Below the pieces are notes generated by a model that saw only the letters and a program-made list of their open reading frames with translations, did not search any database and had not been told where the DNA came from. Of a DNA stretch of 33,032 nucleotides, positions 124-33,032 are shown one piece after another. The DNA comes from Thermoproteota archaeon. Lineage in GTDB: Archaea; Thermoproteota; Thermoprotei_A; Sulfolobales; Acidilobaceae. A program made the translations under genes and the position numbers. The first letter of the stretch is position 1. Each line of letters begins with the position of its first letter. The stretch lies in NCBI GenBank assembly GCA_030549835.1, contig JAUQQR010000017.1, forward strand, positions 1 to 33,032, in the 5' to 3' direction.

Positions 124-954
124 GCTTCTAGGTTCAAAGGCTATTACTGTGAGAGCTAGTAGTATTAGCATATAGGCTGTTAGGGTTAATAGTGATGGTA
201 TTTCTCTGAAGAGTATTAGCCCCCAGATAGCTGCTAGTACTGGCTCAATTGTAGCTATTATTGAGGCTGTTGAAGCTCTAATATGCTCTACTCCTCTAGT
301 AAATAGCCAGTATGGTAGTAGAGTTGTGAATATTGCAAGGTATGATCCAACTATTAGTGATCTATATATTATGTTAATGCTAGCTATTTCATCTATGCTA
401 GTCCTAATGGTTATGCTAAGGATAAGTACTGGCGTTGTTGCTAGTAGCGTATATGGCATTGCACCTATAGATACCTCTCTCCTGTATCCCAGCTTCGAGT
501 AGTATCTAGCTATTGAAATATAGATACCATAGGATAAGCCAGATATTATACCGAAGAGGAAGCCTGCTAGGTTGAGGTTATTTAAAGCATTAAATCCCAT
601 GAGGGCCATGGCTATGATTATTAGAATAACGCTAATGATAGAATTTACGCTAGGCCTTTCTCCATATACTAGTGAGGTAATAGTAGCCCAGAGAGGAGCA
701 GTGTATAAGAGGAAGGCAGCGTAGCCAACACCAGCAGTAACTGCAGCTAGAGGGTAAGAGGCGAATAGTAGACCGAGAGGAATACCAGCCATAATAGAGC
801 TCATACTAAAACTCCTATAAAATAGTAAAGCAATAAAACCAGCTACTATAGACCTCACAAACGCTAATACAGTAATATCACCACCATATGTACTAGCAAC
901 ACCAATAGTAGACCATAAGATAGCAGCACATACAACATAGAAGCCAGGCCACAC
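106..954 (-). CDS. EamA/DMT-family drug/metabolite transporter
   Basis: This is a polytopic membrane protein of the EamA (drug/metabolite transporter) superfamily, about 282 residues from the GTG at 954, with two repeated EamA halves and about ten hydrophobic helices. Typical motifs are AAILWSTIGVAS in the first helix, YTAPLWATITSLVYGERP at the end of the first half, and ATIEPVLAAIWGLILFREIPS in the second half. The substrate cannot be told from the sequence. The open frame continues upstream to a TTG at 1068, but those 38 extra residues (including WAQKVPMIPAWSG) are encoded inside transposon remnant R1 and resemble a TnpB C-terminal tail. I therefore prefer 954, which gives the usual family length. 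At the other end, the last residues KQSQ and the stop lie in the 84-nt terminal repeat. The gene is thus bracketed by element sequence at both ends. Confidence 0.85.
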   Translation of the reverse strand: MWPGFYVVCAAILWSTIGVASTYGGDITVLAFVRSIVAGFIALLFYRSFSMSSIMAGIPLGLLFASYPLAAVTAGVGYAAFLLYTAPLWATITSLVYGERPSVNSIISVILIIIAMALMGFNALNNLNLAGFLFGIISGLSYGIYISIARYYSKLGYRREVSIGAMPYTLLATTPVLILSITIRTSIDEIASINIIYRSLIVGSYLAIFTTLLPYWLFTRGVEHIRASTASIIATIEPVLAAIWGLILFREIPSLLTLTAYMLILLALTVIAFEPRSEKQSQ

Positions 955-1210
955 CGTTTCCCATCCTAGATTTTTAGGATGGGTTGCGCCTCCTGCCCCG
1001 CGCTTCGCAGCTGCTACCAAGCCACTCCACGCGGGAATCATGGGCACCTTTTGAGCCCAACGGCACAAGGGCTCACATCTAATTTTTATCCCTAGAATAG
1101 GATGAGAGAATAAATCTTATAAACATTAACTCCCTAGTAGAGTAGTACTTCTCCAAAAATCCTACAAAAACCCTTATAAACCTAACACACCAAAACAGCC
1201 GTCAACCCTC
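954..1210 (-). mobile_element. R1: tnpB-less IS200/IS605-type remnant with promoter-like boxes
   Basis: Read on the minus strand, this 257-bp block is very similar to 14389-14651 (R2), and its core is shared with 3520-3748 (R3). It holds two TTTATAAG boxes (the inner one at 1116-1124), then the block GATAAAAATTAGATGTGAG (1090-1072). Next comes a GGGC/GCCC pairing core followed by ATGA, then a terminal 9-bp hairpin (960-968 with 975-983) and the end GGGAAACGG. One frame reads WAQKVPMIPAWSG, which looks like a TnpB C-terminal tail. No tnpA or intact tnpB is present. The inner TATA-like box is about 25 bases ahead of the 19-nt block, so an RNA of roughly 140-150 nt could be made. Confidence 0.7.
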
Positions 1211-3519: not shown

Positions 3520-3748
3520 TTTATAAGGGGCTGTTTTCTCTTTTTTTCGAGGAAATTTTTATAAGCTATGATTTCTAATCCTAGGATGAGCCTGAGGAGC
3601 GATAAGGAGCATTGCTTTAAGCTTCCCGGGGGATAAAAATTAGATGTGAGTCTTATATAGTTAGGCCCGGAAGGGTGCCCATGACCTCGCGAGGAGTTGA
3701 GGTACAACTCGTCCTAGAGAAACCTACAGAAACTTAGGGCGGGAAACG
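3520..3748 (+). mobile_element. R3: tnpB-less IS200/IS605-type remnant, diverged relative of R1/R2
   Basis: This plus-strand block shares its order of motifs with R1 and R2. It has TTTATAAGG at 3520-3528, GGAAATTTTTATAAGC at 3551-3566, the identical block GATAAAAATTAGATGTGAG at 3632-3650, and GGTGCCCATGACC at 3674-3686. It ends in a weak terminal hairpin (CCTA...TTAGG) and GGGAAACG at 3741-3748. One frame reads RVPMTSRGVEVQLVLEKPTET then stop, again like a TnpB tail. The spacing between the second TATA box and the 19-nt block is 40 or more bases longer than in R1/R2. The element points toward the 3' end of the uL15 gene and fills the 313-bp gap between the uL15 gene and the thioesterase gene. 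Confidence 0.65.
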
Positions 3749-3767
3749 TTTCTCTGAATAAAGTAGA

Positions 3768-14353: not shown

Positions 14354-14388
14354 CTACCCTCCCCCGAGAGTATACTATATGAGGTAAG

Positions 14389-14651
14389 CCGTTTCCCATC
14401 CTAGGTTTTGTAGGTACTCCAAGGATGGGTTGTGCCTCTACCCCGCGATTCGCAGTGGCTACTAGCCACTCCACGCGAGGGTCATGGGCACCTTTTGAGC
14501 CCAACGGCACAAAGCTCACATCTAATTTTTATCCCTAGGATAGGATGAGAGAATCAAAGCTTATAAACATTACCTCCCTAGTAGCGCAGTACTTCTCCAA
14601 AATCCTACAAAAACCCTTATAAACCTAACGCATCAAAACAGCTGTCAACCC
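14389..14651 (-). mobile_element. R2: tnpB-less IS200/IS605-type remnant, close copy of R1
   Basis: This 263-bp block is a near copy of R1 along its length. Both TTTATAAG boxes are present (inner one at 14560-14568), as are GATAAAAATTAGATGTGAG (14533-14515), the GGGC/GCCC core with ATGA, and the terminal GGGAAACGG. The terminal stem is 7 bp (14395-14401 with 14423-14429) with a longer loop than in R1. The TnpB-like tail frame reads RWAQKVPMTLAWSG and then stops. Differences such as compensating changes in the 60-base GC-rich arm could tell whether the RNA fold has been under selection. It fills most of the 312-bp gap between 14353 and 14666. Confidence 0.7.
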
Positions 14652-32763: not shown

Positions 32764-32948
32764 ATCCTAGATACTGGTATGAGTATAATCTTTAGAGTCT
32801 TAGTAAACTCTCTAGTCTTATAAAGCTTCTCAGACACCCTCTCGATACCTATCTCGATTCTAAATACATATAGTAGCCGAAACACCTAAATTTTACAGAG
32901 AAAACAGTCTCTCAGGCTCACTATATACTTTTTGAAAGGTGTTAAAGA

Positions 32949-33032
32949 GAAAAGCAGTCACAGTAAAAGGCTTTTAAGGTGCCTCTAATGTAGCTGTTCT
33001 CTGTTTTATAACTGTTTATACAAGTTTATATC
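32949..33032 (+). repeat. Right arm of 84-nt perfect inverted repeat
   Basis: These 84 bases are the exact reverse complement of 40-123. The match runs up to the last base of the window, so the repeat may be longer. The 185 bases between the MFS stop and this arm contain no gene I can support. Confidence 0.85.

Follow-up and report, generated by a model that had tools for sequence, protein, structure and literature searches.

R1 and R2, two short elements in the 33,032-nt stretch of archaeal DNA analysed here (the window), are MITE-like deletion derivatives of an IS607 element that carried a serine-recombinase tnpA and a tnpB. We consider it likely that both are guide-RNA-bearing IS607 MITEs, that the third element, R3, is a chimera in decay, with parts from two IS607 lineages, and that all three are probably idle in their own genome. 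The window constitutes contig C39 in a genome assembly of 1.42 Mb (G000; 68 contigs, 96% complete). The named sequences closest to one protein of the window are from MAGs labelled Staphylothermus sp., Desulfurococcales archaeon and Pyrodictiaceae archaeon (69-72% identity), which makes an uncultured Thermoproteota archaeon of Desulfurococcales type the most likely host.

Exact boundaries were obtained from aligned copies, 16 in the case of R1. R1 (954-1208, (-)) is a complete 255-bp IS607-derived miniature element of the A lineage with a GG crossover at both ends, R2 (14389-14651, (-)) is a complete 263-bp element of the same kind and lineage, and R3 (3527-3749, (+)) is a decayed chimeric miniature element with a B-lineage left end and an A-like right end. 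The original prediction had the same bounds for R2 but slightly different ones for R1 (954-1210) and R3 (3520-3748). R1 and R2 are ~87% identical. The sequence blocks said to be shared by the three elements, namely the 19-mer GATAAAAATTAGATGTGAG, the GCCCATGA core, a GC-rich arm and the end GGGAAACG, were all present at the reported positions. The 19-mer occurs exactly at three sites in the window, 1072-1090 (-), 3632-3650 (+) and 14515-14533 (-), and at no further site in the window when up to three mismatches were allowed (0.04 expected). The TATA-like sequence TTTATAAG occurs 13 times in the window, as compared with 5.1 expected, and six of these occurrences are at R1-R3.

A genome-wide search for further copies, proposed together with the original prediction, was productive: BLASTN with R1 yielded 36 matches in its own genome, 12 of which are at least 170 bp long. 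Among the five congeners, R1 had three weak matches, all in a single genome. In G000, several copies lie at contig ends (on C1, C36, C38, C45, C58, C19 and C59), indicating that the assembly broke at these repeats and that there are probably more copies than were counted. At either end of the window itself lies one arm of an 88-nt inverted repeat, 99% complementary (40-127 and 32945-33032), probably a dispersed sequence at which assembly failed. A plasmid search returned no match.

Matches to remnants of the autonomous element, found in the same genome on contigs C41, C47 and C16, relate R1 to IS607. On C41, the sequence immediately preceding a tnpA remnant of IS607 type matches the left third of R1; on C47, the 3' terminus of a tnpB remnant matches its right half. 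R1 retains the opening codons of tnpA, TAC TAC TCT ACT AGG GAG (YYSTRE), at 1130-1147, and the 19-mer corresponds to the last tnpB codons, encoding KLDVS. An A precedes the GG (A|GG) in 16 of 16 aligned left ends, while the right ends read AAAC-GG in nearly all aligned copies, R3 having GT instead. There are no terminal inverted repeats, with 6-7 of 25 positions matching between the two ends. IS607 elements cross over at GG and do not duplicate their target (PMC6188088; PMC10711439). Searches of the genome gave no match to the Y1 transposase (Y1_Tnp, PF01797) and no Pfam match to OrfB_IS605 (PF01385), and both absences count against an IS200/IS605 origin. Overall, the tnpA and tnpB remnant matches, the GG ends and the lack of both inverted repeats and a Y1 transposase assign the elements to IS607, with its serine TnpA, and the IS200/IS605 assignment of the original prediction is therefore incorrect.

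Another genus of the order contains an intact element with the same ends, G160c (genome G160, contig C2, 340.4-343.5 kb stretch). Its left and right ends are GGGAGTGCAACTGTTTTGATGTGTTAGGTTTATAAAGG and GCGGGAAACGG, respectively; its TnpA contains HTH_17 and Resolvase domains, and its TnpB, of 424 aa, contains a TNB domain. The G160 genome also holds a tnpB-less element. A second complete element is G138c. The expected relative with an intact tnpB thus exists in another genus but is represented in G000 by remnants, and no intact tnpB was found there.

The VPM(I/T) tails that had been taken for TnpB C termini belong to another frame. The TnpB frame reads KLDVSPCAVxLKxCP-stop in R1 and in the C47 remnant and VSFVPLGSKGAHDPRVEW in R2, whose open C-terminal frame is 72% identical to residues 385-424 of TnpB from the Sulfolobus virus STSV2 (tblastn). 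The broader proposal, that R1-R3 lack tnpB and derive from a TnpB element, holds on both counts.

At the opposite end of R1, the segment at 1130-1208 (-) comprises the tnpA promoter region and the first tnpA codons, and matches both the C41 remnant and G160c. Within it, the outer TATA-like box TTTATAAG (1173-1180, (-)) would be that of the A-lineage tnpA promoter. The inner box (1116-1123, (-)) is like the left end of lineage B, and transcription is predicted to start just before GGGATAAAAATTAG. In R2, the outer and inner boxes were recognized by sequence at 14616-14623 (-) and 14560-14567 (-). The left part of R1 and R2 is, to judge from these sequences, the original tnpA promoter region. Retention of both boxes, originally described for all three elements, applies to R1 and R2. 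In R3, only the inner box (3557-3565, (+)) belongs to the element, the outer one (3520-3527) consisting almost entirely of target DNA to its left. An EamA transporter gene with the same orientation as R1 (106-1068, (-)) has R1 at its 5' end, and its called ORF begins within R1; R1 may therefore have replaced the promoter or start of this gene. A search for the empty R1 site in congeners found no EamA match beside the neighbouring gene.

Covariation and a pseudoknot identify the right end, by comparison of sequences, as a genuine TnpB guide-RNA (omega RNA/reRNA) scaffold, in line with what had been proposed for it. The guide RNA overlaps the 3' end of tnpB and stops at the element boundary. We built a covariance model (CM) from 16 copies in the genome and compared folding with that of shuffled sequence (z). 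The 128-nt scaffold of R1, which overlaps the tnpB 3' end (954-1081, (-)), scored 153.6 bits and that of R2 (14389-14524, (-)) 148.9 bits, scores to be read in the light of the membership of both in the training set; z was -3.8 and -3.1, respectively. By contrast, the degenerate scaffold of R3 (3641-3749, (+)) scored 60.7 bits and folded no better than shuffled sequence (z -0.03). In R1, the terminal hairpin CCCATCCTA...TAGGATGGG (960-983, (-); helix 6) precedes AAAC-GG and covaries across 74 sequences. The pseudoknot (helix 2) is formed by the loop CCGTT at 1059-1063 (-) and AACGG at 954-958.

Across the 74 relatives, 94.4% of the cells in helices are paired as compared with 74.5% in shuffles, 32 of 37 pairs have changes on both sides, and 470 cells are changed on both sides as compared with 124, although the counts for the nested helices lean towards the model because the alignment was fitted to a model holding them. 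None of 500 shuffles reached any of these three values, and in slid controls pairing fell to 33-46%. The pseudoknot is absent from the model's structure, and 93% of its cells are paired, with both-side changes in three of its five pairs. In it, the P1 loop pairs with the terminal five bases of the element, including the crossover dinucleotide, with which the pseudoknot covaries: the two strands are CCGUU/AACGG here, GCGUU/AACGC in the congener G004, whose dinucleotide is GC, and CCUUG/CAAGG in STSV2. The pseudoknot is intact in R1 and R2 and broken in R3. Compensating changes, whose presence the original prediction had made a test of the RNA, are thus found across the relatives. Within the 16 copies from G000, however, covariation did not exceed that in shuffles, so that compensating changes cannot be claimed for this genome and the signal comes from the relatives. 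Rfam contained no match at the gathering threshold, and below it a chance match only.

IS607 TnpB activity requires such a pseudoknot, and the flanking nucleotide forms part of the scaffold (PMC10711439); the predicted guides accordingly begin after GG. The covariation of the pseudoknot with the dinucleotide, whether GG or GC, agrees with this proposal. The original placement of the guides at the bases following GGGAAACGG agrees with the boundary mapping. From IS607 reRNA biology (PMC10711439) and this mapping, the predicted guide of R1 is TGTGGCCTGGCTTCTATGTT (934-953, (-)), at the 5' end of the EamA gene, and that of R2 would be CTTACCTCATATAGTATACT (14369-14388, (-)).

R3 had been regarded as a full sibling of R1 and R2; its features instead are those of a decayed chimera of two IS607 lineages, with a left end from lineage B. 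Its middle is truncated and helices 4-5 are mostly deleted. Lineage B is represented in G000 by decayed full-length or long copies on C16, C10, C60 and C52 and by an intact TnpA of 224 aa on C58. Elements of this lineage have GGGCTGTTTTCTTCTTAATTTTTCGAGGAAATGTTTATAAGC as the left end and GTCCCTAGATG...CATCTAGGGACAAACGG as the right. The inner stretch of R1 and R2 resembles the lineage-B left-end promoter, and nesting of B in A, seen in copies C30 and C59b, could be the source of their inner box. R3 is located between rpl15 and a 4HBT thioesterase gene. In all four congeners that match at this site, it is unoccupied and the rpl15-4HBT gap spans some tens of bases or less, indicating that R3 is a lineage-specific insertion.

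The account that we favour for the origin and behaviour of elements such as R1 and R2 is as follows. An internal deletion removed nearly all of tnpA and tnpB while retaining both ends: on the left, a TnpA site and the tnpA promoter; on the right, a TnpA site and the TnpB guide-RNA scaffold. The deletion sets the promoter directly before the guide RNA, with the chromosomal sequence after AAAC-GG as the guide. TnpA supplied in trans could move the element as a circle via crossover at GG. With a cognate TnpB, the transcript may lead the nuclease to cut the empty site, whether donor or allelic (left flank, GG, guide), and such cutting would favour retention of the element.

The guide-RNA family extends well beyond this genome. 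The covariance model matched 107 of 214 genomes of the order. Further matches were to lineage B and to the right ends of tnpB in the Sulfolobus viruses STSV2-4. The viral TnpB genes were reached via a match in a phage collection and served as outgroups in the RNA alignment. STSV2 has two (L104:1342-2625 and L133:2001-3260); both bear this guide-RNA family at the right end, with 85% identity between them. We inspected 57 loci, sampled from model matches with at least 1 kb upstream in a manner that favours high-scoring, multi-copy genomes: 49, in 19 genomes, had no TnpB stretch longer than 72 aa, and eight had one. Groups of genomes differ in how the left end is joined to the RNA, from which we infer that guide-RNA-only elements arose more than once.

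The congener G004 contains full-length TnpB ORFs together with about ten tnpB-less guide-RNA elements. In one TnpB lineage, comprising L209:1198-2607 (G004 C22), L128 (G004 C23) and L122 (G019 C31), the RuvC Glu motif is altered: the canonical VVLEKLP is replaced by VVIGDID or IIIGNVH, and none of the zinc-ribbon Cys remains. The one member scanned had no Pfam match. These proteins are possibly nuclease-impaired; an alternative position for the Glu is conceivable. In the type-2 elements of G004 (L203, L204, L205, L206 and L210), a GC-rich hairpin (AGCCCCC...GGGGGGCT) is fused directly to the scaffold; in the intact gene, this hairpin sits within tnpB, upstream of the guide RNA.

Whether the guides are in use in G000 bears on the chief alternative, which is that R1 and R2 are active in trans: transcribed, loaded by a TnpB encoded elsewhere in the genome, and cutting empty sites to protect the element. 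The scaffold and pseudoknot are intact and have promoter boxes in register with them, and guide-RNA-only elements recur in many genomes with differing junctions, as this explanation would lead one to expect. Moreover, in G004, with its full-length TnpB ORFs, unique mutation events avoid paired RNA positions (13 versus 17.4 expected, p 0.04), a marginal value given that four families were tested. However, the G004 TnpB lacks the canonical catalytic Glu and zinc-ribbon Cys, and no signal of selection was obtained for the families in G145 and G161. In G000, the search of the 96%-complete assembly found no intact tnpB but only fragments or pseudogenes: C47 holds a C-terminal fragment, and the copies on C10 and C16 contain stops. 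An intact gene could be absent merely from the assembly, as it may have been missed among 68 contigs with several copies ending at contig edges. Nor was there any sign of selection on RNA structure among the tnpB-less copies of this genome, in a test of limited power based on 16 related copies. Substitution rates were 10.3% at paired and 10.6% at unpaired positions, broken pairs numbered 57 as compared with 57.05 expected, and 60 of 106 unique mutation events fell at paired positions (60.7 expected). The RNA part has diverged more than the left end (15.3% versus 7.9%), the latter being the most conserved part. We therefore consider it unlikely that R1 and R2 are guides in use by a TnpB of this genome, as the original prediction had suggested.

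Its other suggestion, that the elements are MITE remnants, fits this genome best. Because the autonomous partners found are fragmentary or pseudogenes, save for one intact lineage-B TnpA, and the RNA imposes no constraint on the drifting copies, R1-R3 most likely represent idle guides or fossils of guide RNAs. In genomes that hold both components (G160, G138 and G004), use in trans is plausible.

Two further explanations fared worse. The right-end hairpins might be kept solely as DNA sites for a transposase, as in IS200/IS605, with the RNA reading being incidental. Both ends needed for mobility are indeed present and the left end is the best conserved, but covariation that spans ~130 nt and takes in a pseudoknot as well as nested helices is typical of TnpB guide RNAs, the IS607 TnpA, as a serine recombinase, carries out its exchange on double-stranded DNA at GG (PMC6188088), and the genome is without a Y1 transposase, which makes this account very improbable. 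That the sequences are host RNAs with a native regulatory or structural role and no connection with TnpB accords with the lack of an Rfam match at the gathering threshold but is hardly credible given dispersed copies with exact boundaries and the overlap of the same sequence with the tnpB 3' end in intact elements and Sulfolobus viruses.

Taking R1 and R2 as IS607 MITEs that carry guide RNAs, we tentatively suggest that guide-RNA-only IS607 elements across the order could be mobile, self-retargeting guides that parasitise the TnpB of other copies, and that in G004 they may serve the TnpB without the canonical catalytic Glu, in a ribonucleoprotein that binds rather than cuts. If so, every new insertion would create a guide directed at the empty version of its site. 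Should tnpB-less copies be used where TnpB is present, many short elements would share one nuclease and be protected by self-made guides, a testable selfish strategy in hyperthermophilic archaea. Regardless of function, the analysis defines an order-wide archaeal family of IS607 guide RNAs that has no match in Rfam at the gathering threshold. Non-autonomous copies carrying guide RNAs have reportedly also been described in work on IS200/IS605 elements of Geobacillus. Our literature search, which had most subscription journals outside its scope, found no paper describing guide-RNA-only elements of IS607.

Among known systems, IS607 elements with a TnpB reRNA, as represented by ISXfa1 (PMC10711439) and the RAGATH-18 reRNAs (PMC11061315), likewise have an HTH-serine TnpA, a GG crossover, a TnpB and a right-end guide RNA with a pseudoknot that includes the flanking nucleotide. 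In contrast to those systems, tnpA and tnpB are deleted here and the RNA family is an archaeal one that Rfam does not match at the gathering threshold. Of the RAGATH-18 RNAs, 64% adjoin IS607 TnpBs and 36% do not, so that orphan reRNAs were already known in number; in the portion of that report consulted, the latter are not presented as mobile elements (PMC11061315). The Sulfolobus MITEs SMN1 and SM3A are likewise short and non-coding, occur in related archaea and are moved in trans by the transposase of an IS. They are attributed to ISC1733 and ISC1058, terminal inverted repeats are said to be typical, and no guide RNA is described in the portion consulted (PMC3718332). SisTnpB1 of Sulfolobus islandicus (PMC10640517) is likewise an archaeal TnpB with a right-end guide RNA, and its AT-rich left-flank motif, TTTAA/TTTAT, resembles the T-rich ...A|GG flanks found here; unlike the present elements, it is assigned to IS200/IS605 and encodes an active nuclease. 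The PATEs of Haloquadratum (PMC3119063) are also transposase-free archaeal elements derived by core deletion from tnpB-bearing transposons, which they outnumber. They are of IS605-type origin with near-terminal palindromes, some being only 52 bp long, whereas the elements described here derive from IS607 and keep a full guide-RNA scaffold. By analogy, these elements would work like a cross of PATEs and IS607 reRNA loci.
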